This document shows, piece by piece, positions 25,512-40,392 of a stretch of DNA of 64,000 nucleotides. The notes under the pieces were generated by a model. The model was not told where the DNA came from and ran no database searches. It saw only the letters and a program-made list of their open reading frames with translations. Made by a program: the position numbers and the translations under genes. The stretch comes from a virus, in the IMG/VR virus record IMGVR_UViG_3300027733_000028, positions 143,041 to 207,040 of that record; one strand, given 5' to 3'. Numbering within the stretch: the first letter of the stretch is position 1; each line of letters starts with the position of its first letter.

Positions 25512-25609
25512 CCCTCCAGCGTTCAAACTCTGAGTTTCAGGAATAAATAGAAATATAAACGAACAAAAAAGCGCGCAGCGGCTTCCACCTCTGAGTACCA
25601 AGAATAAAT
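25512..25609 (+). repeat. Imperfect direct repeat before the capsid-targeting island
   Basis: Two related ~40-base units, both with CAGCG, then CTCTGAGT and GAATAAAT (25528-25548 and 25589-25609), period 61 bases. The second copy runs into the ATG at 25608. The ATAAAT part of the first resembles the late-type element, so the repeat may hold the island's promoter. Confidence 0.5.
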
Positions 25610-25985
25610 GAAATCAATACCTACATATCACGAATTCCTTAATGAGACCGTCTCATTTAATACCGATACTACTGGTCGTGAAGATTGGGATGATGATCTA
25701 AAGAAACATTCTAGAGATTTTACTCAATCTATAGTAATAATGAGTCCGATGGATTTCTTGAAGAGAGTTCAATATCACCGATTTGAGATTAATAAATCTA
25801 AAGTGGCTAATTATGTTAAAGAATTTCGTGGTAATGTCAAAGGAATTCCAGCACCAACCATGTGGTTCTCTGATAAGTTTCAATACGATAAAGGACTTGC
25901 TCCTGCTTTTCATGATGGATCTCATCGCATGCTAGCTCTACAAGAAGTAGGGATACGAGAAGTTCCGGTTAAAATTATATACTAA
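25608..25985 (+). CDS. Capsid-targeted protein with ParB/Srx-like motif
   Basis: Residues 1-13 (MKSIPTYHEFLNE) match the shared capsid-targeting-like peptide, with predicted cleavage after LNE. The C-terminal part ends AFHDGSHRMLALQEVG...VPVKI, similar to the DGxHR...GxxxVPV box of ParB N-terminal/sulfiredoxin-fold proteins, which in the wider family includes nucleotide-binding and DNA-nicking enzymes. The activity is open. First of nine proteins with this N-terminus. Confidence 0.65.
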   Translation: MKSIPTYHEFLNETVSFNTDTTGREDWDDDLKKHSRDFTQSIVIMSPMDFLKRVQYHRFEINKSKVANYVKEFRGNVKGIPAPTMWFSDKFQYDKGLAPAFHDGSHRMLALQEVGIREVPVKIIY

Positions 25986-25986
25986 G

Positions 25987-26607
25987 ATGAAAAACATTCA
26001 AACATACGAAAGCTTCTTAAATGAACTTCGACATTCAAAAGAGTTTTTAATAGACCTATTTTCTAAAATGGATATTTTAGATAATGATGTATACAAAAAC
26101 ATTTTAATCCATTACATTGAACAACCACAAAATTTAGAAAAACAAGAGTTCATTGATTTAGTTTCATGGTTGATCCAGAATAAAAACAAGTACAGTGAAG
26201 TACTAAAGCCTAAAAATGGATATGCATACAGAGGAACTTCAATAACTCCTGATATGTTTCATAAATTAAAAAATGGATTATCAAAAAAAGAAGGTGGTAT
26301 AAGCATATTTAACTTTCCTTATACCAGCGAATCAGAAGCACAAAGTTGGACATATGATTATAAAGTAGCAATGAGGTTTGCGGATAAAGGTCTTTTAAAT
26401 AACCCTAGATTAGAAAAAGGAGCTAGACCAGCTATTTTAAGAGCTAAGATAGATGATACATTTGTAGGTAATCCTAAGTTGACTGGTCCCATAGCTGACC
26501 GATTAAGTCTGAAGTCCGAAAAGGAAATATTTCATTTAGGGAATTCTATAAAAGATGCTGAATGGATGATATTCTCAGCCGATATAGAATTAGGAAAATT
26601 TAATTAG
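25987..26607 (+). CDS. Capsid-targeted ADP-ribosyltransferase candidate
   Basis: After the N-terminal peptide MKNIQTYESFLNE the R-S-E class ADP-ribosyltransferase triad can be traced: R82 in AYRGTS (NAD binding), YTSES at 112-116 followed by the FADK helix, and E178-x-E180 in SEKEIFHLG. T4 Alt, an ADP-ribosyltransferase injected from the capsid that modifies host RNA polymerase, is the clear precedent. Target unknown. The start is one base after the previous stop. Confidence 0.75.
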   Translation: MKNIQTYESFLNELRHSKEFLIDLFSKMDILDNDVYKNILIHYIEQPQNLEKQEFIDLVSWLIQNKNKYSEVLKPKNGYAYRGTSITPDMFHKLKNGLSKKEGGISIFNFPYTSESEAQSWTYDYKVAMRFADKGLLNNPRLEKGARPAILRAKIDDTFVGNPKLTGPIADRLSLKSEKEIFHLGNSIKDAEWMIFSADIELGKFN

Positions 26608-26617
26608 TATAAAGACT

Positions 26618-27016
26618 ATGAAATCAATATCGACATATGATGAATTCTTAAATGAGTCTATTCGTGCAGAAGAGGCTTATCGAGATACAGGAGCTATTCA
26701 AACCGTCATTGATGGAAAGAGAGATATGGGATTCATTACCATCAAATCATCGGTTGATGTGAGCGAAAAAGAATTCTGGACATTGGTGAAGATACACGAT
26801 CTGAGTACCATTCACCTATCTGGAAATGAATATGATGCCTATATCTATTATCATAAAGGAGCCGAGCGAGGTGCCAGAGAGCTAGCGAAGATTGCTAACA
26901 AATACGGTGGATATCTATCACATGAAGCGACTGAACGAGAATCTCGTCGAATAGGCGAACTTCTAGGTTACGATCGACGAGACATAGATGATTATATAAA
27001 GAAAAACTACAAATAA
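26618..27016 (+). CDS. Capsid-targeted protein of unknown function
   Basis: It has the shared N-terminus MKSISTYDEFLNE; residues 14-132 form a compact alpha/beta body with YDAYIYYHKGAERGARELAKIANKYGG, possibly a nucleic-acid-binding helix-loop. No catalytic motif is clear. The stop overlaps the next start by one base. Confidence 0.65.
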   Translation: MKSISTYDEFLNESIRAEEAYRDTGAIQTVIDGKRDMGFITIKSSVDVSEKEFWTLVKIHDLSTIHLSGNEYDAYIYYHKGAERGARELAKIANKYGGYLSHEATERESRRIGELLGYDRRDIDDYIKKNYK

Positions 27017-27171
27017 TGGATAATGGAAAACGTAATCAATTAAAACCTGTGAGAATCGCTGATGTTAATAAGTTGGTGGCTAATGATCCGAGGATTCTTA
27101 TTAAAGTTAATCATAAAGGTGGAAGTGGAGTTTCTCTTATGAACACTAATAAAATTAAAGACCGAAAATAA
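27016..27171 (+). CDS. Small basic protein, 51 aa
   Basis: A short frame with ATG overlapping the previous stop (TAATG) and ending two bases before the next start, so it fits exactly between its neighbours. Sequence starts MDNGKRNQLKPVRIADV and has repeated Lys/Asn. It lacks the targeting peptide. Confidence 0.6.
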   Translation: MDNGKRNQLKPVRIADVNKLVANDPRILIKVNHKGGSGVSLMNTNKIKDRK

Positions 27172-27173
27172 GA

Positions 27174-27878
27174 ATGAGAAAGATAGCCTTATATGAGCAA
27201 TGGATAAATGAAATTGGTGATTCATCAGCCAAGCCATTCAAATGGAGTAGTCCTGTTATCGCTGTTAATATGAAGAGATGGATAGATGATTGTATCGAAG
27301 GAGCTGCAGACAAGAAGATGAGTGGAACTCAAGAAGATATTTACTATAAAACTAAAACATTTAGATATGAATTCCGATCGGATGTGACTAATACAAATTA
27401 TCATGTACACATCGGTGGATTTGTTGGTAGAAATATCTGGATTGCCTTTCAAGGAGAAAAACCTAAAGATTGGGTTGGATATCATATAATTGCCGGATTA
27501 GGATTTGGTGTTGAAGGAGATTTCGATAAAACTACTAATCTTAATGAACAATTCCGAGTAATGGCAACCGTTACCGAATGTGCCATTGATTTTCTACAAC
27601 GATTCTTGGATGATGGACGAATCAAGATTGATAAATTTCACATGAAACCTAAGGCCGATCACGAAGAACAAAAAGGAATAGATTCTCGTCGAGCTAAACT
27701 ATATGCCCCTTATATTAAAGCCGCATTCCGCAAACTCAAAACGAAGAAGGATTATTACATAGATCAAGAGGCAGATGGATTCGTTCTTCATTTCGGAAAG
27801 GTCATAATGAACTCTCCTTATTCCACTTCAGTATTAGCATCAACCTTTGAAAATGAAGAATCCAATGAAATCAATTAA
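27174..27878 (+). CDS. Capsid-targeted protein, 234 aa, unknown function
   Basis: The shared peptide here is MRKIALYEQWINE. The body has a beta sheet (YEFRSDVTNTNYHVHI, NIWIAFQGEK) and a segment FRVMATVTECAIDFLQRF...SRRAKLYAPYIKAAF that recalls a widespread phage family with FRVxATV...SRxxLY motifs and unknown role, perhaps acetyltransferase-like. It overlaps the next gene by 14 bases. Confidence 0.6.
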   Translation: MRKIALYEQWINEIGDSSAKPFKWSSPVIAVNMKRWIDDCIEGAADKKMSGTQEDIYYKTKTFRYEFRSDVTNTNYHVHIGGFVGRNIWIAFQGEKPKDWVGYHIIAGLGFGVEGDFDKTTNLNEQFRVMATVTECAIDFLQRFLDDGRIKIDKFHMKPKADHEEQKGIDSRRAKLYAPYIKAAFRKLKTKKDYYIDQEADGFVLHFGKVIMNSPYSTSVLASTFENEESNEIN

Positions 27879-28935
27879 GCTATATGAAGCCTTCTTAACA
27901 GAAGGAGGCTGGGCAACAACCAAAACACAAGGAACCGTTCTGACTCCAGCTGTTATCGCTGAGGTTGTGAAGGTTATGGATCTGATCAATACGGGATTCA
28001 ATGGACATTTGAGAGAGCTTGAACTTCCCACTCTAGATATTCTAAAACCTATTGGCAGTGGAACTTGGTGGAGTGAAGATGTGACCGAACAACCAGACAA
28101 AACTTATGGAGATGTCGATTACATGGTTGCCTATCCCACTTTGAAGCTCACTGCTGGTCGTGATAGAGAAGATGAGATTGCTACGGTGAAGCTATACAAT
28201 ACCGAGCTGCTCATGTGGTTAGAGGAAGAAGGTATCACCGATGTAGATATTGATGAGACGAAGAAAATATCTTCGGATGTTTCTCTTAAGTTAATTGCGA
28301 TCGTTCCCTTTAATGGAACTGATGCATATGTTCAGGTTGATATGGTTGTTACTCACAAAGAGTATAGTGATTGGGCAGTATTCCGTATGACTCCTATTCG
28401 TAACGTTAAAGGTTTTGTGCTAGGAAATCTCTACTCTTCATTTGGTGAAGTTCTAGATTTGTCTATTCAGGCAAGAGGAGTAAGAGCTAAATTTGAAGGT
28501 CAGGTTATGAAGCCTTATTCTAAACGAGCTAATGTTGAGGATCGCATCATCTCACAAAATGCTGAATCATTCATGACCGATATCGCTCGTTTCTTTTGGG
28601 AACAGAGCGGAACAGATATTCCATTCACCGCTACTCCTATCGAATCTTGGAAGGGAATGGATCGCAACTCTCCTCGATTCGAAGATCTAGCCGAAGGAAT
28701 TCGTCTGGTTGCCGAGACACTAGGTCAGCTAGACGAATTTGGAACTACTATTAAATACAAATCAGCTGCTGATCTACTAAATGCAGTGATTGCTCAATAT
28801 ACGAAGAAGATGATGGAAGCTTATAATTCTGCTAAATTTGATAAGGCAGAAACTCCAGCAGCAAAAGCCATTATCACTAAAGTTAGAGCAACCATTGACG
28901 AATATATCAGTCTGGCTAAATCACTACTTACATAA
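27865..28935 (+). CDS. Capsid-targeted nucleotidyltransferase-fold protein
   Basis: I start at MKSIKLYEAFLTE, which aligns with the other targeting peptides; the longest frame adds six residues. A polymerase-beta-type nucleotidyltransferase core is visible: PIGSGTWW (64-66), D83-V-D85 in YGDVDYMVAYP, and third acid D159 in YVQVDMVV. Such enzymes add nucleotides to RNA, antibiotics or proteins (AMPylation, toxin MNTs). Host target unknown. A smaller protein with the same triad is at 58765. Confidence 0.65.
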   Translation: MKSIKLYEAFLTEGGWATTKTQGTVLTPAVIAEVVKVMDLINTGFNGHLRELELPTLDILKPIGSGTWWSEDVTEQPDKTYGDVDYMVAYPTLKLTAGRDREDEIATVKLYNTELLMWLEEEGITDVDIDETKKISSDVSLKLIAIVPFNGTDAYVQVDMVVTHKEYSDWAVFRMTPIRNVKGFVLGNLYSSFGEVLDLSIQARGVRAKFEGQVMKPYSKRANVEDRIISQNAESFMTDIARFFWEQSGTDIPFTATPIESWKGMDRNSPRFEDLAEGIRLVAETLGQLDEFGTTIKYKSAADLLNAVIAQYTKKMMEAYNSAKFDKAETPAAKAIITKVRATIDEYISLAKSLLT

Positions 28936-28942
28936 AAGTAAT

Positions 28943-29317
28943 ATGTTATACTATTCACCAAAAATTGCAGTCGGAGAATCGACTGTAGCAGGCAGAGGTG
29001 TATTTGCCATAGCCGATATAGAGGCTGGAGAGGTACTTGAAGAGTGCCACTTCTTTTTACTAACTAATGGTAATCATTCAGCTATGGATGATACTTTAAA
29101 AGAGATGGTATTCGCATGGCCGGCATATAATGATGTTCATCAATTTGCTGTTGTACTAGGCAGTGGAACTGTTTATAATCATTCATATGAAAACAATGCA
29201 ACCTGGGATACTGATGAAGCTAAATGCTGTTTCAGATTTTCTTCTACTCGAGACATAAAGGCCGGTGAAGAGATATTCACAAATTATAACCGAAGCGGAG
29301 GAAATCACTTTGATTGA
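28943..29317 (+). CDS. SET-domain protein, putative lysine methyltransferase
   Basis: Starting at MLYYSPKIAVG gives a 124-residue minimal SET domain: STVAGRGVFA (GxG), GSGTVYNHSYENNATW (NHxxxPN-like SAM knot), and RDIKAGEEIFTNYN (GEExxxxY). SET proteins transfer methyl groups to protein lysines. It has no targeting peptide although it sits within that gene island. An upstream in-frame ATG lies inside the previous gene. Confidence 0.8.
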   Translation: MLYYSPKIAVGESTVAGRGVFAIADIEAGEVLEECHFFLLTNGNHSAMDDTLKEMVFAWPAYNDVHQFAVVLGSGTVYNHSYENNATWDTDEAKCCFRFSSTRDIKAGEEIFTNYNRSGGNHFD

Positions 29318-29323
29318 TAAATA
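29317..29323 (+). promoter_or_regulatory. Candidate late promoter, ATAAATA with conserved leader
   Basis: The sequence ATAAATATAAAAACACACAA after the SET gene is nearly identical to ATAAATATAAAAACAAACAA upstream of the LamG gene on the other strand. ATG is 27 bases downstream. The shared leader makes this the strongest ATAAATA-type site. Confidence 0.5.
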
Positions 29324-29343
29324 TAAAAACACACAAAAGCTAA

Positions 29344-30261
29344 ATGGCTAATTCAACATACACAGATCTTCAAGTTCTTATTCAACGAATAAGAGGTAAG
29401 CGAGTTCTTCTTCTTACAACATCTAATAGATGGAGTGGTGATGAAGGAGGAAAACCTAAATCTACTCAATTGGCTGAGTTAATAGCCAGATCTTTATACG
29501 ACGATTCAACGGATTCTACTCTTTGTAAAGTAATAGATATTCCATCTCTCAATATTCACAACTGTGAAGGTAATGTATCTTCCGGAAGTGGTAATGGTTG
29601 TGGAGTTAAGGCTGCTGCCCTAAAGGATACCACTAAAAATCCTACTGGTAATCTTCGTTGTTGGGCTTCTATTAATAATGCCGATGATGAGTTATGGAAA
29701 GTTAGTAATGCTATATTCGAATCAGATGTAGTCCTCTTCTTTGCTTCTACAAGATGGGGTCAGGCAAATGCATTCTATCAAAAACTTATCGAACGTCTAA
29801 CTTGGTTAGAGAATCGTCACACTACTCTTGGTGAATCTAATCTACTAGGAAATATTGAAGCTGGTGGATTCTTCATTGGACACAATTGGAATGTAGAAGA
29901 TGTAATGAATACTCAAAGAACGGTACTTCAGTATTTCGGATTTCAAGTTCCACCTCAACTTTTTCTTCACTGGCAATGGACTAATAGTGATACTAACGAA
30001 ACTCAGAAAGGATATGAAGCTGATGCTAAAGACTTCAAAGAGGTTTGGAAAGTTGGAACATATCCTTTAGAGGAAAGTTTTAATCGTTGGTTGAATGAAG
30101 CTGGTTATGATGCTGGTTCTAGAAAACCTACTCCGGAAGAGGTTGAAATGTGCAAATCTCCAGAAGGATTTAATCAGATAAACCACTGCAAAGCTTTAGG
30201 ACTTACTCCTCGTGAAGATGGAACCAAAGCCAAATCTAAAAAATATGGTGGTGACGCATAA
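29344..30261 (+). CDS. NADPH-dependent FMN reductase/flavodoxin-like protein
   Basis: A flavodoxin-like fold is suggested by KRVLLLTTSNR (first strand and phosphate loop), KSTQLAELIARSL, and FESDVVLFFASTRWGQANAFYQKLIERLTW, the typical PxYxxxxPxxLKxxxDR-like region. The middle holds a Cys-rich Gly/Ser segment (CEGNVSSGSGNGCG). It may reduce flavin or a quinone; it lacks the targeting peptide, and why it is in this island is unclear. Its stop overlaps the next start. Confidence 0.65.
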   Translation: MANSTYTDLQVLIQRIRGKRVLLLTTSNRWSGDEGGKPKSTQLAELIARSLYDDSTDSTLCKVIDIPSLNIHNCEGNVSSGSGNGCGVKAAALKDTTKNPTGNLRCWASINNADDELWKVSNAIFESDVVLFFASTRWGQANAFYQKLIERLTWLENRHTTLGESNLLGNIEAGGFFIGHNWNVEDVMNTQRTVLQYFGFQVPPQLFLHWQWTNSDTNETQKGYEADAKDFKEVWKVGTYPLEESFNRWLNEAGYDAGSRKPTPEEVEMCKSPEGFNQINHCKALGLTPREDGTKAKSKKYGGDA

Positions 30262-31043
30262 TGAAACCGATAAAACTTTTTGAAGATTTTATTAATGAAT
30301 TCGATACAGGTAAAGTATTACTAGGTGATCCTTCTTTATTGGGTAGACCTAATAAATGGGAAGATCTCGGAATAGAGTTTGAACCTAATACTGCTGACAA
30401 AACTCAATTAATACAATTGATAAAAGATTGGATTTTTAAAGTAAAGGCAGATCCAAAGATGGGACATATCCTTAAAGAATTGCTGCCCTTAAAAAAGAAG
30501 TTTCCGAAAATATTAGAACCATCTGAAGGTAGATCCGTCTATGAAGGTACTTCTCTTTATAGAGGAACTATAATACCATTTAAAGAAGTGTTATCACTAA
30601 AGGGTAAATGGAAACGTAACGACGCGGTTGATATTTTTGGTGGTAGCCTAAATCTCAGTACATCATATAATTGGGAAAGTATTAATAGAAAGGGATTCAC
30701 TTCGTTTACACCATCTATCGAAATAGCGGCCACTTTTGCAGGAAGCCTTAGTTCAGAAAATTATAACGAAATTGTAGCATCTAAAACGGTTGTTAAAAGA
30801 TTATTAGATGGATCCATTGATGGTATGATTCCGATGATTATTAAAATTAAAGACACACATCCCTTAGCAATTATGAATCCGGTGTTTACTCAATCAATTC
30901 ACGAATTCATGAATGAATTTGAGGTATTTGTTGTTGGAAATAAAATCCGGGTTGATGAAGTTATAATTCCAGGATGGCATTACTACGAAAGAGATGCTAA
31001 AGAATTAGGAGTAGATCTTACAAAATATTTTAACATACAATGA
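30261..31043 (+). CDS. Second capsid-targeted ADP-ribosyltransferase candidate
   Basis: N-terminal peptide MKPIKLFEDFINE, then a helical lead and the R-S-E triad: R101 in SLYRGTIIP, FTSFT at 146-150 with the following AATFAG helix, and E219-x-E221 in MNEFEVFV. It keeps all three ADP-ribosyltransferase sites better than the first paralogue. The two share little sequence apart from these, so they may modify different host proteins, as T4 Alt and ModA/ModB do. Confidence 0.78.
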   Translation: MKPIKLFEDFINEFDTGKVLLGDPSLLGRPNKWEDLGIEFEPNTADKTQLIQLIKDWIFKVKADPKMGHILKELLPLKKKFPKILEPSEGRSVYEGTSLYRGTIIPFKEVLSLKGKWKRNDAVDIFGGSLNLSTSYNWESINRKGFTSFTPSIEIAATFAGSLSSENYNEIVASKTVVKRLLDGSIDGMIPMIIKIKDTHPLAIMNPVFTQSIHEFMNEFEVFVVGNKIRVDEVIIPGWHYYERDAKELGVDLTKYFNIQ

Positions 31044-31648
31044 AACATATCCAAGGTTTTAATACATTCCTTAATGAAGGCGAAGGTTTATTTGCTGATG
31101 CCGGTAAAGGATCTACTAAAGGAATTGGATATGGAACGCCAGAAAAAGCTAAAGAGACTATTAAGATCGCTGACAAAATGAAGGCAGACGATCCAGGAAA
31201 AGCCGTTCAAATCGTTAATGCCATGCTCAATCGAGCTAAATACTCAAATGGTCAGAATGATGGCATGAGAGCAGCAATTCCCATCTTTCAAAAATGGTTA
31301 AAGGCCAATCAAGCATCTGAATCATTTTTAGGAGTTGATGAATTCATTCTAGAAAAACTTTGGCAAAAGGAAGTAGAATCTTCTCACCTTAACGAAATTG
31401 AATATGACTCATCAACTGAAGAACTAACTATTACTTTTAACAATGGAGACCGCTACAGATATTATGAAGTTCCTAAATCCATCTTCCGAGAATTTGCCAA
31501 TGAGAAAACTATTCTAGGAAAGATTGGTGGAGGAATTGTCAAAGGAGCCAAGAAGCTATTTGGTAAGGATATTGACGAAGGTACATATGGTAAAAAATTC
31601 TGGTCACTCATTCGTCGAGGTGGCTATCAATACGAAAAACTCTCATGA
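31040..31648 (+). CDS. Capsid-targeted protein with C-terminal KTSC domain
   Basis: The targeting-like start is MKHIQGFNTFLNE. Residues ~128-202 form a KTSC domain (ITFNNGDRYRYYEVP, IFREFANEKTILGK, FWSLIRRGGYQYEKL). A linker in between includes DEFILEKL, which could be a second (L/I)xE cleavage site. It overlaps its neighbours by four bases on each side. Function unknown. Confidence 0.68.
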   Translation: MKHIQGFNTFLNEGEGLFADAGKGSTKGIGYGTPEKAKETIKIADKMKADDPGKAVQIVNAMLNRAKYSNGQNDGMRAAIPIFQKWLKANQASESFLGVDEFILEKLWQKEVESSHLNEIEYDSSTEELTITFNNGDRYRYYEVPKSIFREFANEKTILGKIGGGIVKGAKKLFGKDIDEGTYGKKFWSLIRRGGYQYEKLS

Positions 31649-32310
31649 AAGAAATAAAATTATATGAGCAATGGCTCAATGAAATCGATGGTCCTGCAGA
31701 TGGATCTCTATTCGGTACATCCGGAGTAGATTTTGGATTCATCGGTCTGCAAGATCCAGGAGACACACCAAATTCGTTTGAACCTAATATGGTTGAATCC
31801 TTTATTATTGATCTTCTTCAAAGACACAATAATACCGTTCCTTCTCCTGGCACACTTACCGTCGAGTATCTTGAAGATATCGAAAAGGTACAAACCGGAA
31901 TGAGTGATAAAGATCGATCATTTGTTCAGGCAGTTAATAATAATCCTATGGCTTTTCATGTTGAAGATGCCAAGAAAGCTGGTATTGATCTAGATGGTAA
32001 ATGGTTAACTGAATGTTGGGATTATGCTACCAGTGTAGCAGGTACTGCAAAAGATATTTGGAAAGTAAAACGTCCATTTGAATTAAGCTCAAAAGTCAAG
32101 GGGTTGGTTCCTACTAAATCCTTCTCATTTCCTTCAACTAATGCGGCCGGATCTTTTTATGTAGCAAAAAAGGTTGCAGAGAAATATCCTCAATTGAAAG
32201 AATCTCAAATGGAAGTGGCTACTCAAATAGCAAATTCACGAGTTGTTGCCGGTGTGCATCATCCATTAGATATTGCCGTTGGAAAAATGTTAGCCTTAGG
32301 CTTATTATAA
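31645..32310 (+). CDS. Capsid-targeted PAP2-type acid phosphatase, altered motif
   Basis: After MKEIKLYEQWLNE and a ~110-residue helical region comes the PAP2/class A phosphatase signature: K136-x6-R143-P144, then PSTN at 163-166 where PSGH is usual, then S198-R199-x5-H205-x3-D209. The nucleophile His205 and phosphate-binding Lys/Arg are kept, but the PSGH histidine that protonates the leaving group is Asn, so activity may be changed. Possible substrates are nucleotides, lipid phosphates or phosphoproteins. Confidence 0.75.
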   Translation: MKEIKLYEQWLNEIDGPADGSLFGTSGVDFGFIGLQDPGDTPNSFEPNMVESFIIDLLQRHNNTVPSPGTLTVEYLEDIEKVQTGMSDKDRSFVQAVNNNPMAFHVEDAKKAGIDLDGKWLTECWDYATSVAGTAKDIWKVKRPFELSSKVKGLVPTKSFSFPSTNAAGSFYVAKKVAEKYPQLKESQMEVATQIANSRVVAGVHHPLDIAVGKMLALGLL

Positions 32311-32864
32311 TGTTCAAGAAATTTAGACAATTCATTAATGAAGATATTCATATACCTTCCGGTAAATGGATAGACACTGACCTTAAAGGTCAGGATGATG
32401 ATATGATGCAACTCATATGGACAATGTATACTGACACATACTCTAAACAAGGATTAGATTTCTCTGCCGATGATTATGCTGAACTTAAAACTAAATACCA
32501 AGCAACATTCTTAAAGGATGTTGACCATGATCGTATTCCAGATGCCTTTATTATATACAAGAAAACGAAGTATGGAAATAAGATTGCTCTTCTAGGAACT
32601 AATGATAAGAAGACTGCAAAACGAGATCTTCTAGAAAAAACTATTTCATTACTTAAAAATCCTGGTTGGTTGTTAGAGGCCTCTCGTAAAATGGAAGAGA
32701 TTCTTTCAAATTCAAATGTTCCTTATATTGAAGATCCTGAAATCATTGCTGATATTGTCGGTAAAGACAAGAAACCTGAAATGGTTAAACATGGATATTA
32801 TACAAGACTTCTTTCAAAAACACCAAAGCGTATCTTAAAACGCATGTATGGTAAGGTCAAATAG
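32310..32864 (+). CDS. Capsid-targeted protein, acetyltransferase-like family
   Basis: The last of the series, with a shortened peptide MFKKFRQFINE. The body (DVDHDRIPDAFIIYK, YGNKIALLGT, KRDLLEKTISLLKNPGWLLEAS) resembles a phage family sometimes annotated as N-acetyltransferase-like; I can see no acetyl-CoA loop, so that is weak. Its start shares the last base of the previous stop. Confidence 0.6.
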   Translation: MFKKFRQFINEDIHIPSGKWIDTDLKGQDDDMMQLIWTMYTDTYSKQGLDFSADDYAELKTKYQATFLKDVDHDRIPDAFIIYKKTKYGNKIALLGTNDKKTAKRDLLEKTISLLKNPGWLLEASRKMEEILSNSNVPYIEDPEIIADIVGKDKKPEMVKHGYYTRLLSKTPKRILKRMYGKVK

Positions 32865-32938: not shown

Positions 32939-32946
32939 TATAAATA
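32939..32946 (+). promoter_or_regulatory. Candidate late promoter, TATAAATA
   Basis: An exact TATAAATA after an 84-base gap. It is only three bases before the first ATG of the giant gene and 18 before the second, which suits the second ATG better. Confidence 0.4.
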
Positions 32947-32948
32947 AT

Positions 32949-35900
32949 ATGAGAAACAAACATATGAAAAATCCTATTTTAATTTGCCTGTTACTATTTA
33001 ATTTAATTGTAATTGGACAAACAACACCTAAAGAAAGATACATAAACAATTCTGATTATCTTTCTAAAAACTCCTTAGTCGATTACAAAAGCTATTACGG
33101 AGATTCCATACAAGGATTCGACGAAGCAGCTATGAAAGTTGAACTACTAAGACGAAACGTTTTTGGTTCAGAATACATCAACTACATTGCTCTTGTAAAA
33201 AGAGAATGGGTAAATCAAAAGTACGGTATCAAACCTGTACTACCTATCAATTCAAACAACCGACCTATTGGAGGTCCTAACTCAGTTAATTCACCTGGTA
33301 ATGCTTGTGTGAATGAAGACTTTGAGCTTACTGCACCTGGAGCTTATAATGGAATGAATTCTGTTTTAGGATGGACAATTCAAAGTGGACAAAATACTTC
33401 CAATATCTGTTGTGGAAATCCTACATATGGTGCTGGCTGTGTTGCTAATCCTATTGCTAATTGGAATGCAGGTAGTCCTGAATTTTCTATTGTTGCTACT
33501 CCAATACTACCTGCTCCTAGTTGTGCTAATCCTCCTGGATTTAGTATTGACAATGTATCAATACCTAATTCACCTCTTGGCGGTAACCGAGTTGCAAGAC
33601 TACAAAACTCATGTCCAACCGGTTTGATGACTCGAATTATGACACAATTTCCTGTTTCAAATTCTAATACCTTATTTCAATTTTGTTATGCTGGTTCATG
33701 GGATGGTGTTCATGAATGTTGTGGACAACCTGCTTTTAGAATCGATATGTATAATTGTACAGGTTCATTAATCCCAATACCATGTGCCAATGTAAGCCTA
33801 ACTCCTTCCGGACAATCTTGTCAAAGTGGAGTTCCTGGATATCAGGTAACCAGTGGAGTTTCATGGGTTAATTGGCAAACAAAATATATTGACTTAACTC
33901 CTTATATTGGTCAGTGTATTAGAATTGTGGTAACTTGCTCAGATTGTTCTTATTCTGGACATCATGGAACTGCTTATTTTGATGCAAGATGCGGTGGTCA
34001 ATTAGTTGGAGTTGGATTAGGTGGAGTTGGTGGAAACATTGCAGGACCTGTTAGTTATTGTGCTGGTTCAAATCAAGCTATTATTGCCGCACCATTGGGA
34101 TACTCGTCATATCAATGGATATCTCCTATCACAGGAACAATTCCTGCTAATGCAGGAGGTACAGCTCCAGTATTAACCATAAGTCCAGTAGTTGCAGGTT
34201 TAGTGTATACAGTTCAGTTAAACTCACCATCAGGGTGTTCTTATATTGCAACCAATACAATCATGCCTACTCTTGTAAACATTGCAGGTATTGGTTCAGG
34301 CACAAGTTGTGCAGGAGGATCAAGTGGAACGGGTACTGTTCAAGGTAATGGCAGTGGCACAGGATACAATTATACTTGGGTAAATTCAAATAATGCTGTA
34401 GTTGGTACCTCAGCAACAGTAAGTGGACTGCTTCCAGGAACATATAGCGTAACTATAACTGGTCTTGGCGCTGCAGGATGTGGTTCAGCAACATCAACTA
34501 TATCAATAGGAGTTGGAATACCTCAAATGCAAAATCTATTAAAACCGTATTGTGGTTCTCAAGCCTATTTAAGTGTAACGGGTAATAGTGTTCAGTGGTC
34601 TACCAACAATACAGCTATCTCCGCTCCATTAGGAGTGGCAATGGGATACACAGTAAACAATCCAGTACAGGCTTCAGTATACACAGTTACCTATACTTCA
34701 TTACAAAATTGTAATGAAGCAGCTTCATTCACCCTAATACCATCTCCGCCGGGCAGTATATCATTACTAACTACTTCTGTTTGTTTAAACTCGACAAATG
34801 GCAGTGGAACTATTAATCTAACTCCTGCATCTGGTTCTCCTCCTGGAGCTAATTCATATTCAGTATGGAATTCTAATAATACTCCGGTTTACAATTCATC
34901 ATTGTCTCCTACTAATCAAAATAATTATTTGTTTGGAAACATGGGAACCGGTAGTTATCAAGTAAGAGTATTTGATGGTTCCTGTGCATACACAACTTCC
35001 TTTATTATACCTACTCATGTATTTTCTCCTACATTAAGTCCAACCTCAACAACTCTATGTCCTGGTGGAGGTATTGCAGCCGGAGTAGTATTTAGTATTC
35101 CACCATCATTATCTCAATACACTTACTCTTGGACACCTAATATCTTTTTAGCAGGAAACACTCAACAATCAACGATTATCATACCAAATCTTGCAGTAGG
35201 TACGCAATCAAATATAACTTACTCAGTTGTAATTACTCCTACTGCTATTAATTGTCCGATGACTCGTACATTAAATTTATGGGCAATCAATCCACCAATT
35301 CCAACTATTACTGCAATACCTAATATGTGTAACAATATGCTTCCATATCAAGTATTGGCTAATCCCAGTGGTGGTATCTTTACCGGAGTTGGAATGAGTA
35401 CATTAGGTTTAATCTCTCCGACTGCTTCACTATTAGGAATCAATAACTTTACATATGCCATTTCAATTAGTACTTGCGCATCATCTAATACTGGAAGTTA
35501 TCAGGTATCATATTTCAATACTTCATCATTAAGCTCTTCAATAAATCCTATATGTTCTACTAATTCAACAATAAATCTTATGACTATTGTTCAGAATACC
35601 TTAGGATCTTGGTCAGGTAATTATATAACGAATAACATATTCAATCCAGCAAATCTAAATGGAGTATACTCATTAACCTACAATAATTTATCAACACCAA
35701 ATCCTACAGTATGTCCTTCATCTACTCAAATGAATATATCGGTTACTAATACAATAATTCCGACTATTGCAAATTCCAATCCATTCTGTACGAATGCCTC
35801 CTCTTTTGTATTGATCGCTAATCCAAATGGAGGAATCTGGTCTAACAATTCTGCAGTGAGCGGTTTAGGTATTGTAACTCCTTCATTGACATCTCCTACA

Positions 35901-37916
35901 AATACAACGGTTAATTATGTCGTTAATGTTGGTCCATGTATAAACACAAACACATTCAACATATATCCATCAACTTTCAATACGGCTTCTTTAACTGGAT
36001 CTATCCCTAATTTATGCGTAACGAGCTCATCAATAAATCTAATGTCAATCGTACAAAATACGACTGGATCTTGGTCAGGAATGAATGTTACTCAAAACAT
36101 ATTCAACCCTTCAGGATTACCGACCGGAAATTATACTTTAACATACAATACCAACTCGGCTCCTAATGTTACTCTATGTCCAGATAACCGAACAATAAAC
36201 ATATCGGTTCTTAATCCGGCATCTCCGAACATTACTACATTCGGACCTATATGTAGCAAAGATGCTATTATGCAAATGACCGTTACTCCTAATTCTGGTA
36301 GTTGGATTTCTACTCCATATCTAAACATTAATGGAATATTAAATCCTTCGCTATGTCCTATTGGAATTAATGCCATTCAATATGTAATAGGAACTAATAC
36401 TTGTTCGGCTCAACAAACAAAAACCTTTGTGGTTGAGATGTTCATTCCATCAACGATAACAAATCAAATACCTGACTTGTGTAATACCAGCTCTCCCATA
36501 AATCTTAATTCATATTCTGGTTTTCCTGGATCTTGGTCAGGATTAGGAATCAATGGTTCAATGTTTACTCCATCGAATTCAGGAACATTAATTCTAGTAC
36601 ATACCACATCATCATCTAGTGGTTTATGTCCTAGTACGTCAAGCATATCAGTTAGAGTATATTCATTACAATCTCCAGTAATAATCAAGCCAAATTCTGT
36701 ATGTAACACATATGCGCCTTTCCAATTACAAGTAAATCCAATCGGTGGTATATTCGGAGGTAATGGATCTAATACTAACGGAATTTTTAATCCAGCATAT
36801 GGAGCGATAGGAAACAATATAATTAATTACAGCATTTCTGCCGGTCCTTGTATAGCATATGCACAGACTACTGTTAATATTGAGAAATTTATATCGGCTG
36901 ATCTAGATCGATACCCTAAAACCGTTTATTGTAAAGGTACTGAATATCCTTTTAATCTGAATTCGTTAGTCAAAAATCCAAATTATAATTGGTCTGGTCC
37001 TGGAGTAAATGGTTATATGTTCGATCCACAAATGGCAAACATCGGAAACAACCTAATATATTATCGAACGCATTCTGCACCAACGGCTTCATTATGTCCG
37101 GATGAAAAATCATTTAACATAAGGGTTGCTCAAATAAGTAAACCCATCATATCGCTATCTGATTCAATTGGTTGTGTTCCTCTTAGAGTAATTCTCAATT
37201 CAAACGAAAATACTGGATTATCTTCTTGGAAATTTAGTAATGGATATTCTAGTGAAGCCAATTCTCTTGCATATACATTTACTTCAAGCGGAATACATTC
37301 AATAATATTCTCATATATCAATGATGAAGGTTGTGTATCGCCAAATCAAATGATTACTCTTATTAGAGTTGATGAGGTACCTTTTCCCAAGTTTCAATTA
37401 CCAAAATCCATTTATGCAGGAGATTCAGAAATCCAAGCAATAAATCTAACTCCTAATGTAGGAAGTTACACTTACACATGGATGGTATCTAATGGATATT
37501 CAGTAAACACAATTAATCTTGCATACGATCCCAAGAAAATAGGCAAGTACGAAATAACATTAATTGCAAAGACGGTTAATGGATGCACGGCATCTACTAG
37601 AAAAATGATAGAGATACAAAACGAATTTGAAGTACATATCCCAAATACTTTCACTCCTAATAGAGATGGTCTCAACGATTATTTTCTTCCAGTATTTTCT
37701 GACTATGGAGTTGAGTTATCTTTTTATACACTAGAGATTTTCGATCGATGGGATCACTTAATTTATAGATCAATCGATCCTAAAAAAGGATGGGATGGAA
37801 AAGCCAAAAATGAATTATGTCAACAAGGATCCTATGTATACAGACTTAAGTTTTCTGATAAAGAGAAGAATGTGTATGAGAAGATTGGACATGTTCTCCT
37901 TTTAGGATCCGATTAA
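32949..37916 (+). CDS. Giant secreted protein with T9SS gliding-motility C-terminal domain
   Basis: 1655 residues. A Sec signal peptide follows the first or, more naturally, the second Met (32964: MKNPILICLLLFNLIVIGQ). The N-terminal third is Cys-rich and lectin-like; the middle has several ~160-180-residue Ig-like repeats sharing LMxIVQNTxGSWSG...NIFNP...CP patterns; the end (residues ~1565-1655) is a typical gliding-motility C-terminal domain: HIPNTFTPNRDGLND, FDRWDHLIY, GWDGK and GSYVYRLKF. This domain directs proteins through the Bacteroidetes type IX system to the cell surface. It may alter host adhesion or block other phages, or be a captured host gene. Confidence 0.88.
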   Translation: MRNKHMKNPILICLLLFNLIVIGQTTPKERYINNSDYLSKNSLVDYKSYYGDSIQGFDEAAMKVELLRRNVFGSEYINYIALVKREWVNQKYGIKPVLPINSNNRPIGGPNSVNSPGNACVNEDFELTAPGAYNGMNSVLGWTIQSGQNTSNICCGNPTYGAGCVANPIANWNAGSPEFSIVATPILPAPSCANPPGFSIDNVSIPNSPLGGNRVARLQNSCPTGLMTRIMTQFPVSNSNTLFQFCYAGSWDGVHECCGQPAFRIDMYNCTGSLIPIPCANVSLTPSGQSCQSGVPGYQVTSGVSWVNWQTKYIDLTPYIGQCIRIVVTCSDCSYSGHHGTAYFDARCGGQLVGVGLGGVGGNIAGPVSYCAGSNQAIIAAPLGYSSYQWISPITGTIPANAGGTAPVLTISPVVAGLVYTVQLNSPSGCSYIATNTIMPTLVNIAGIGSGTSCAGGSSGTGTVQGNGSGTGYNYTWVNSNNAVVGTSATVSGLLPGTYSVTITGLGAAGCGSATSTISIGVGIPQMQNLLKPYCGSQAYLSVTGNSVQWSTNNTAISAPLGVAMGYTVNNPVQASVYTVTYTSLQNCNEAASFTLIPSPPGSISLLTTSVCLNSTNGSGTINLTPASGSPPGANSYSVWNSNNTPVYNSSLSPTNQNNYLFGNMGTGSYQVRVFDGSCAYTTSFIIPTHVFSPTLSPTSTTLCPGGGIAAGVVFSIPPSLSQYTYSWTPNIFLAGNTQQSTIIIPNLAVGTQSNITYSVVITPTAINCPMTRTLNLWAINPPIPTITAIPNMCNNMLPYQVLANPSGGIFTGVGMSTLGLISPTASLLGINNFTYAISISTCASSNTGSYQVSYFNTSSLSSSINPICSTNSTINLMTIVQNTLGSWSGNYITNNIFNPANLNGVYSLTYNNLSTPNPTVCPSSTQMNISVTNTIIPTIANSNPFCTNASSFVLIANPNGGIWSNNSAVSGLGIVTPSLTSPTNTTVNYVVNVGPCINTNTFNIYPSTFNTASLTGSIPNLCVTSSSINLMSIVQNTTGSWSGMNVTQNIFNPSGLPTGNYTLTYNTNSAPNVTLCPDNRTINISVLNPASPNITTFGPICSKDAIMQMTVTPNSGSWISTPYLNINGILNPSLCPIGINAIQYVIGTNTCSAQQTKTFVVEMFIPSTITNQIPDLCNTSSPINLNSYSGFPGSWSGLGINGSMFTPSNSGTLILVHTTSSSSGLCPSTSSISVRVYSLQSPVIIKPNSVCNTYAPFQLQVNPIGGIFGGNGSNTNGIFNPAYGAIGNNIINYSISAGPCIAYAQTTVNIEKFISADLDRYPKTVYCKGTEYPFNLNSLVKNPNYNWSGPGVNGYMFDPQMANIGNNLIYYRTHSAPTASLCPDEKSFNIRVAQISKPIISLSDSIGCVPLRVILNSNENTGLSSWKFSNGYSSEANSLAYTFTSSGIHSIIFSYINDEGCVSPNQMITLIRVDEVPFPKFQLPKSIYAGDSEIQAINLTPNVGSYTYTWMVSNGYSVNTINLAYDPKKIGKYEITLIAKTVNGCTASTRKMIEIQNEFEVHIPNTFTPNRDGLNDYFLPVFSDYGVELSFYTLEIFDRWDHLIYRSIDPKKGWDGKAKNELCQQGSYVYRLKFSDKEKNVYEKIGHVLLLGSD

Positions 37917-37920
37917 AATT

Positions 37921-37975
37921 GTTAATAACTTTCCCGTAATAAATTTTTTTATTCCAAAAAGTTTTATTATATTTG
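37921..37975 (+). promoter_or_regulatory. Recurrent bipartite phage promoter
   Basis: GTTAATAACTTT, T-run with ATTCC and TATATTTG, 47 bases between box starts; immediately after the giant gene's stop. Restarts early-type transcription. Confidence 0.88.
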
Positions 37976-38000
37976 TATATACAATTTAAACAAATATACT

Positions 38001-38195
38001 ATGGAAAATAATTTTGAAGTATCCGATCTTGAATTACTCACAACATCGGAATTAAAAACTCTACTAATCGATTTATTCGATGGTAATGCAGGTGAAATTC
38101 TTTATGGTTTTCGAGAAATGGGAATTACCAAAGATGCTAATCTTAAATCGGCAATAATCCGATACATCATTCGTAAACAACCCATCAATGCATAA
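38001..38195 (+). CDS. Hypothetical acidic protein, 64 aa
   Basis: A small helical protein with alternating acidic and hydrophobic residues (LELLTTSELKTLLIDLFDG). It overlaps the GIY-YIG gene by eight bases. Early expression from the adjacent promoter is likely; role unknown. Confidence 0.7.
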   Translation: MENNFEVSDLELLTTSELKTLLIDLFDGNAGEILYGFREMGITKDANLKSAIIRYIIRKQPINA

Positions 38196-38508
38196 ACGAA
38201 GAAGCGATCGTAACCATCTCATCTACAAAATAGAAAATCTCTCAACCGGAGAATTCTATATAGGAGTTACAGTCGTAACCGGTAGAGCATATCTTAAATC
38301 TCTTAAATCTCGATGGAAGCGACATATCTATAAAGCAATGGTGCTTCGTGAAGAATGGTTATTTCCAAAAGCGATTCGCGAATATGGCGAATCTCAATTT
38401 AAACCTGAGATTATCGAAATTGTACGTGGTAAATCTACCGCATTCGGAAGAGAATCTCAACTTATTAACGAAATCCGACCAGCATACAACACACGAATGA
38501 AATGTTAA
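38188..38508 (+). CDS. GIY-YIG nuclease-like protein
   Basis: The N-terminal half shows LIYKIENLSTGEFYIGVT (GIY-YIG strands) and KSRWKRHIYKA with the catalytic Arg; later the acidic FGRESQLINEIRP supplies the Glu and Asn of the core. It fits a compact GIY-YIG of the T4 Seg/homing type without a DNA-binding domain. Homing activity is possible but no intron or interrupted gene is seen nearby. Confidence 0.8.
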   Translation: MHKRRSDRNHLIYKIENLSTGEFYIGVTVVTGRAYLKSLKSRWKRHIYKAMVLREEWLFPKAIREYGESQFKPEIIEIVRGKSTAFGRESQLINEIRPAYNTRMKC

Positions 38509-39189: not shown

Positions 39190-40392
39190 ATGGCAACATT
39201 AGTTTGGTTAACCCATTCATTTCGTACAGACTCTAGGCTAACATCTAAATTATCCGGTCCTTGTACATTCGTATATTATTCACCATACTACTTTGCTGGT
39301 GATCGGGAAAAACAAATTCTGAAACAATGTTCAACGGCTAATCTTGAAGCATTTTACGAATCCCTTGATATTATGCGTAAATCGCTTAAGGCTATTGGCC
39401 ACGAGTTTTACGTCTTCAAACAATCAAATCCTATTGAACATATCAATAGCCTAATTGATAAACATGGATTTGATCGAGTTGTAATAGATCTTCCTCTTTT
39501 TGGAATGTGGAAAACAACCGATCCAATGCAAATCAAAGTTCCTTTTGAATTAATCGATTCTGATCTTGTCGACGATACTTGTTTTAATATGACGGCTAAA
39601 TCTAGGTGGATGTCACATACTCGCAAAATATCTACACACAAACCAAATCAATGGAATTCTGAAATTGTACCAAATCCTATTAATGAAGCAATCAAAAGTT
39701 ATCCGCAATACACTAAGAATAACTTGATTATGCCTCACATCATAACATCTCGTGCATCGGCTATGGCTCCTACATATGCTCAAACTCGAGATAAACATAA
39801 TGGCCAAACTCGTTTATCTACTGCATTTCAAAATGGTACGGTAGATCCTTGCAATATGTTCTATAGCATCGCAAACGATTTTCTAAAATCTGGCGCAGAC
39901 TTCTCGATAAATGAAGGTGCCCATGCTGCAATGCTTCGTCAATTTGCTTTTCGTGAAATGACAATCATTCAAACTCGTCGAGCTAACCTAACCATGGAAG
40001 ATTCCCCAATGCAATGGGCACAACAATTTATAACAGCAACCTCTCTACAAAATCTAAAGAGTCAAACAAATCCAGATAGCACTTTAACATTTGAACAAAT
40101 CAAAACGGCTAGTACCAGCGATACATTAATAAATACAATTCTCGCTGAATCGTTTCAAGTTGGTGTAATGCCAAATCGTGCTAGAATGTTCTTTGCCGGA
40201 TGGATGTTTTACAATGCACCAACTGGTCAACAAGCACTTGAATGGTTAATCGATACATTTGATCTTCTTCTCTTAGATGGTCAATGTCCTACAAATTATA
40301 CACAATGTACATCCGCTATGAATATGCAATATGGTAAAGTAATGTTGCTTAATCGTCATAACGTTAAAGCATTACTTGCCTACGAAAATTAA
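39190..40392 (+). CDS. Photolyase/cryptochrome-like protein
   Basis: The N-terminus LVWLTHSFRTDSRL matches the photolyase opening (LVWFRxDLRxxDN), followed by an alpha/beta domain. The FAD-binding domain is recognisable: GQTRLSTAFQNGTVDP, LRQFAFREM, FQVGVMPNRARMFFAGWMF and DLLLLDGQCPTNY, matching the G(x)SxLSPYL, WRE and MHNRxRM blocks. It is 400 residues, somewhat shorter than the usual 450-480, and several FAD contacts differ, so lesion type and activity are uncertain. UVDE at 57.8 kb is a second UV-repair gene. Confidence 0.75.
   Translation: MATLVWLTHSFRTDSRLTSKLSGPCTFVYYSPYYFAGDREKQILKQCSTANLEAFYESLDIMRKSLKAIGHEFYVFKQSNPIEHINSLIDKHGFDRVVIDLPLFGMWKTTDPMQIKVPFELIDSDLVDDTCFNMTAKSRWMSHTRKISTHKPNQWNSEIVPNPINEAIKSYPQYTKNNLIMPHIITSRASAMAPTYAQTRDKHNGQTRLSTAFQNGTVDPCNMFYSIANDFLKSGADFSINEGAHAAMLRQFAFREMTIIQTRRANLTMEDSPMQWAQQFITATSLQNLKSQTNPDSTLTFEQIKTASTSDTLINTILAESFQVGVMPNRARMFFAGWMFYNAPTGQQALEWLIDTFDLLLLDGQCPTNYTQCTSAMNMQYGKVMLLNRHNVKALLAYEN

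Follow-up and report, generated by a model that had tools for sequence, protein, structure and literature searches.

Phages alter the surfaces of infected cells by small proteins, and the type IX secretion system (T9SS) is, to our knowledge, confined to the Bacteroidota group. An open frame for a giant protein, P0001, in the virus record IMGVR_UViG_3300027733_000028 raises the question of whether a phage sends a protein of this size through the T9SS of its host, and what it would gain by doing so. The analysed window, the right end of this 207 kb record, comprises 64,000 nucleotides (positions 143,041 to 207,040), and coordinates refer to it unless the record or another sequence is named (Table 1).

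The giant gene and its surroundings

The earlier note had described a phage-encoded protein of 1655 residues, with host sequence joined by misassembly as one of two conditions that would refute its reading. The same record encodes portal (gp20), capsid (gp23), large terminase and tail sheath proteins of T4 type, which marks the carrier as a T4-like jumbo phage. Two further assemblies contain the gene at 100% identity, and one of them, a 254 kb version of this phage, is collinear with the record over 205.6 kb at 99.996%. The identical gene in a collinear, separate assembly establishes that the giant gene is phage DNA and no assembly error, and a misassembled host segment is thereby ruled out.

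The frame is uninterrupted over 1655 aa. Its first position, 32949, is the start of the open frame, and the true start is probably Met6 at 32964, since relatives begin there and the predicted signal peptide begins there as well. Signal peptides were called by a simple hydrophobicity rule, and the one proposed by the earlier note is present under this rule, with a start conserved among homologues. The type B sorting domain lies at the C-terminal extreme (residues 1562–1648 of 1655, CHU_C and TIGR04131 combined), and its completeness, as previously claimed, is borne out by scores above both curated cut-offs: 52.7 bits against 27 for Pfam CHU_C (E 4.7e-14, residues 1562–1642) and 47.3 bits against 35 for NCBIfam TIGR04131 ‘T9SS type B sorting domain’. 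A Pfam PKD_4 match (residues 1489–1551) is located N-terminal to it. Of the repeated Ig-like modules postulated before, the regular array stands, with cysteine pairs spaced ~75–90 residues apart defining ~14 modules over residues 371–1462, whereas few of these are recognised by name in Pfam; a BLASTP comparison of P0001 with itself detected no internal repeats at E 1e-3, and the modules are visible by cysteine spacing and alignment only. In total, P0001 contains 48 cysteines, compared to 0–6 in each other protein of at least 800 aa of the same phage, and such a cysteine-pair array fits a protein that would fold outside the cytoplasm. The N-terminal domain yielded an AF2 model of mean pLDDT 40 from 7 sequences, and no credible relative in a profile search of the PDB. 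No SprB family or repeat was matched in Pfam and NCBIfam scans of P0001, nor any phage structural family among PHROGs at E <= 0.001.

Table 1. Features of the giant gene and of its immediate surroundings (window coordinates).
Feature	Position	Strand	Evidence or remark
Giant T9SS type B cargo protein P0001, 1655 aa	32949..37916	+	open frame; profile matches; homologue starts
Signal peptide MKNPILICLLLFNLIVIGQ, residues 6–24	32964..33020	+	hydrophobicity rule
N-terminal domain, residues 106–450, Cys-rich, part exchanged with hosts	33264..34298	+	nucleotide identity, trees, AU tests
Body, residues 451–1462, continuing the Cys-pair Ig-like array that starts at residue 371	34299..37334	+	Cys spacing
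PKD domain (PF18911)	37413..37601	+	Pfam match
T9SS type B sorting domain (CHU_C / TIGR04131)	37632..37874	+	Pfam and NCBIfam
TATAAATA, T4-late-promoter-like box, 17 nt 5' of Met6	32939..32946	+	putative; upstream-region enrichment
Repeated ~90 bp promoter element (TTGTTAATAACTTT...TATATTTG, Bacteroidetes -7 type)	37912..38003	+	closes the transcription unit of the giant gene
Cassette of ~8–9 genes, products beginning M(K)xIxxYExFLNE (capsid-targeting-like)	25608..32864	+	adjacent; context only
GIY-YIG homing endonuclease-like gene, downstream	38188..38508	+	context only

The ‘effector island’ said to adjoin the gene is a real cassette, whose products carry N-termini resembling T4 capsid-targeting sequences, and more such genes occur elsewhere in the phage; the giant protein, however, lacks this motif (ending xLNE) and has a signal peptide at its N-terminus instead. 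Most cassette genes matched neither PHROGs nor Pfam. ADP-ribosyltransferase-like genes (25987–26607 and 30261–31043, recognised by eye only) and genes for KTSC and PAP2 proteins are found in the cassette. On the other side of the giant gene, positions 39190–40392 encode a weakly matching DNA photolyase/cryptochrome-like protein (PF00875, under cut-off). Outside the window, at 109897–111819 of the record, the phage encodes a second T9SS cargo with a cohesin domain and a type A sorting domain. This gene belongs to a stretch (G000:109897–115953; L007, L001) that further encodes two small holin-like proteins and a protein combining signal peptide, C-type lectin and dockerin, and the products might form a phage-made cohesin–dockerin surface assembly.

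The sequence [GT]ATAAATA was found in 12 of 69 upstream regions against 2.9 expected, those of the portal, the major capsid protein and a tail gene included. The enrichment of TATAAATA is restricted to upstream regions, as the whole genome contains 20 occurrences against 33 expected. More than 20 similar copies of the ~90 bp element exist in the phage (sites in G003), the inspected ones preceding genes, and its TATATTTG part occurs in 10 of the 69 upstream regions (0.4 expected). The late-type promoter box, together with the position of relatives next to tail or lysis genes, makes late expression of the giant gene likely.

Relatives in phages and bacteria and exchange of the N-terminal domain

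Searches for homologues, as suggested in the earlier note, retrieved full-length relatives from other phages as well as from the chromosomes of bacteria. The viral relatives occupy six more contigs, corresponding to three to four other phage lineages. In phage B (G002; short relative G004), the gene is 87–91% identical in nucleotides to the copy of the window phage (phage A) and likewise lies at the 3' end of a cassette with capsid-targeting-like N-termini, while the core proteins of the two phages are mostly 24–50% identical. The further viral relatives are L146, L147, L148 (5' of baseplate genes), L149 (385 kb) and L150. In phages C–E, gp25/gp6-like baseplate genes follow the giant gene at a distance of ~6–7 kb. 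L149 and L150 encode the first ~90 residues in a frame of their own, with a signal peptide on both frames. A split form in L114 and L086 distributes the parts over three genes (signal peptide and N-domain; signal peptide and Ig; signal peptide, Ig and sorting domain) near cell-wall hydrolase genes, named by eye. The frame is intact in most phage copies: the phage D copy (L147:9502–14371) is divided into two frames of 168 aa and 1430 aa by a frameshift or an assembly error, and the contigs of phage B and L014 stop within the gene, ahead of the sorting domain.

On the bacterial side, a contig of a MAG whose deposited name is Chitinophaga pinensis carries a full-length collinear orthologue amid ordinary housekeeping genes. 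Relatives of the N-domain are present in 87/87 genomes of the family of this MAG, many of them as ~1,700-aa proteins and in some genomes in multiple copies, and the three family contigs examined are all bacterial chromosome. The L052 orthologue adjoins genes for NAD synthase and arginase, in synteny with L173, and the L171 orthologue adjoins rsmI, corA and an ABC permease gene. As judged from sequence, the giant gene is thus the phage's orthologue of a large surface protein of its hosts. The candidate hosts were assigned by the shared domain.

The N-domain and the remainder of the protein differ in their affinities. At the DNA level, P0001 and host L052 are 82–92% identical over residues 106–450 and 48–66% elsewhere; similarly, phage E and host L168 are 93% identical over residues 241–365 and 54–63% past residue 530. 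In the tree of the body (residues 481–1450) the seven phage proteins form one clade inside the bacterial ones (support 100/99), whereas in the N-domain tree (residues 106–480) phages A and B group with L052 (100/100) and phages C–E with L168 (100/99). In approximately unbiased (AU) tests, a tree uniting all phage N-domains was rejected (p 1e-83), and so were trees pairing the bodies with the respective hosts (p 4e-7 for A/B with their host, and 0.006), these p values being somewhat generous, as the groups were chosen after seeing the trees. With the body forming one phage clade and the N-domains grouping with L052 and L168, respectively, the trees indicate at least two swaps of the N-domain between phages and bacteria. 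Within the N-domain tree, A and B are nested among hosts and L168 is nested among phages; this topology suggests that the transfer involving L168 proceeded from phage to host. The earlier note had recognised neither this exchange nor the orthology to a host surface protein.

Comparing A and B, we obtained a dN of 0.10 and a dS of 0.75 (dN/dS about 0.1), and dN/dS was 0.01–0.17 for the N-domain, which by this measure is under strong purifying selection.

Predicted export through the host T9SS

SprA is present in the candidate host genome G005, and PorP/SprF are represented by 5–10 genes each in G005, G011 and G012. Neither SprA nor PorP/SprF was found in the phage records, the absence of SprA being interpreted only alongside the positive match in G005. 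Among viral frames ending in such a sorting domain and having their start in view, 74 of 76 begin with a signal-peptide-like segment, compared to 13% of 744 other frames at the same loci; near-duplicates occur among the 76, so that the number of independent cases is smaller. Terminase was found in 16 of the 37 records with such frames.

The combination of signal peptide and sorting domain in P0001, its disulphide-type cysteine array, the occurrence of SprA and PorP/SprF in the hosts but not in the phages, and the 74/76 pairing make export of P0001 through the host T9SS very likely, and it is the natural reading of the protein. The use of the host T9SS put forward by the earlier note is in this way strongly supported, by inference.

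At least 500 relatives of the sorting domain are found in IMG/VR, as opposed to matches in 3 of 50,697 phage records, all three metagenomic, which suggests that the pairing of signal peptide and sorting domain, common as it is in viral contigs, has been missed in cultured phages. Several arrangements recur among these genes. Two megaphages encode ~100-aa proteins of signal peptide and type B domain (L022 and L023, in LR756502.1 and LR745206.1), possibly acting as T9SS decoys. In L075, L098, L104, L107, L117, L121, L124, L132 and others, two signal-peptide proteins, one of ~187 aa, are followed by a protein of 186–191 aa with signal peptide and sorting domain. In L063, L065, L102, L103, L118–L120, L126 and L127, such proteins of 420–820 aa are encoded directly 3' of the tail-tube gene, ahead of baseplate-type genes (names by eye).

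According to the model that we propose, the phage would make the giant protein late in infection, the signal peptide would route it through Sec into the periplasm, and the cysteine-pair modules would form disulphides. The type B domain would then direct the protein to the cell surface through the host T9SS, with the host's SprA as translocon and a PorP/SprF protein as partner, and there the phage version would stand among, or replace, the host's own. As the phage N-domain is a near copy of that of the host, it probably binds whatever the host protein binds.

Candidate functions and comparison with known systems

We consider it probable that the gene was captured from a host and that its product is exported to the surface. 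A far weaker claim on belief is made by the notion that the protein merely hitchhikes, as host DNA acquired by recombination and useless to the phage: the N-domain is closely identical to the host gene and a homing endonuclease gene adjoins, but the low dN/dS across a long divergence, the intact frame in most copies and a body forming one phage clade across several lineages in differing neighbourhoods already disfavour this reading to the point that we find it scarcely credible. The protein might instead belong to the virion, as a tail fibre or capsid decoration built from Ig-like modules with the T9SS-like domain as a mere structural cap. Ig-like domains are frequent on virions, genes for proteins with signal peptide and sorting domain lie between tail-tube and baseplate genes in other Bacteroidota phages, and the giant gene itself precedes baseplate genes in phages C–E. 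This location in the virion is nevertheless unlikely, given the signal peptide, cysteine-rich modules unlike all other large proteins of the phage, the lack of a PHROG match, the chromosomal orthologues in bacteria and the absence of a capsid-targeting motif that neighbouring genes possess.

With capture and export as the preferred reading, receptor masking and changed adhesion would be the leading candidate benefits; that the protein coats the infected cell to block rivals or alter adhesion, as the earlier note proposed, would thus be a candidate role. We tentatively suggest that the exported protein replaces or masks a receptor, such that productive adsorption would be lost for other phages or for progeny of the same phage. 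In Flavobacterium, phage receptors are believed to belong to the gliding machinery and its T9SS-dependent surface, according to a study citing the SprB and RemA papers (PMC7345892). Using the same export route, the protein could also stick infected cells to particles or other cells, or free them, thereby improving the spread of progeny. The host family resembles a multi-module adhesin and is multi-copy in some genomes, the best solved relative of the sorting domain is a surface filament protein, the Aureispira grappling hook protein GhpA, and the same phage encodes the cohesin protein with type A domain and the C-type lectin protein with dockerin. A benefit inside a single lytic cycle is, however, hard to see, and the N-domain is without PDB homologue, and we therefore regard an adhesive role as possible but doubtful. 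Finally, the protein could jam or compete for the host T9SS, or displace host cargo, the harm itself being the purpose. The near-stand-alone proteins of signal peptide and sorting domain (~100 aa) of the megaphages LR745206 and LR756502 would suit such interference, but jamming needs no conserved 1,500-residue passenger under purifying selection, rendering this proposal highly unlikely for P0001.

More broadly, it is conceivable, albeit short of what we would assert, that a single host surface protein, captured long ago, is common to several jumbo-phage lineages, and that two-way recombination repeatedly refits its N-domain to the host of the moment, so that the T9SS-displayed phage version could substitute for that of the host: a replacement of surface identity by a lytic phage. 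A phage apparently deploys a host-type surface protein of 1,650 residues via the Bacteroidota secretion system, and the swapped front part suggests that the virus redecorates the exterior of the infected cell. Through the exchanged domains, in addition, named phage contigs can be connected with lineages of bacteria.

Phage-encoded proteins with T9SS sorting domains have precedents. Cryophages carry T9SS type A cargo genes, and the authors describing them proposed that the phages hijack the T9SS of the host, perhaps to achieve superinfection exclusion (Bellas et al. 2020, PMC7468147); there, type A domains are attached to an endoglucanase, a GH39 and a PA14 protein, each variable, whereas P0001 is a type B giant, orthologous to a host surface protein, with a body from one phage clade and an N-domain exchanged with hosts. 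BACON/T9SS frames of crAss-like phages are likewise sorting-domain proteins of Bacteroidetes phages, but consist of BACON repeats in crAss-like genomes, and a host orthologue or domain exchange is not reported in the accessible part of that work (PMC6949934). Our search of mainly open-access literature returned neither a type B phage protein orthologous to a host surface protein nor N-domain exchange of this kind, and nothing further on T9SS in huge or jumbo phages.

Among bacterial proteins, SprB and RemA of Flavobacterium johnsoniae resemble P0001 as large T9SS-exported surface proteins, export of P0001 being predicted, although P0001 matches no SprB family of gliding adhesins in Pfam or NCBIfam. 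GhpA (PDB 9flp; profile match E 1.9e-10) is the only solved relative of the P0001 sorting domain, and no similarity between this 5,898-aa protein and P0001 was found outside that domain. Further counterparts are the chromosomal T9SS type B surface proteins of Bacteroidota (~1,650–1,870 aa; L052, L151–L169), which are collinear with P0001 over the full length, share its architecture and are ~48–60% identical to it, the bodies of the phage versions forming a separate clade. Taken together, type A phage cargo has been known since 2020, whereas a giant type B protein that is orthologous to a host protein and has N-domains exchanged with hosts appears to be new.
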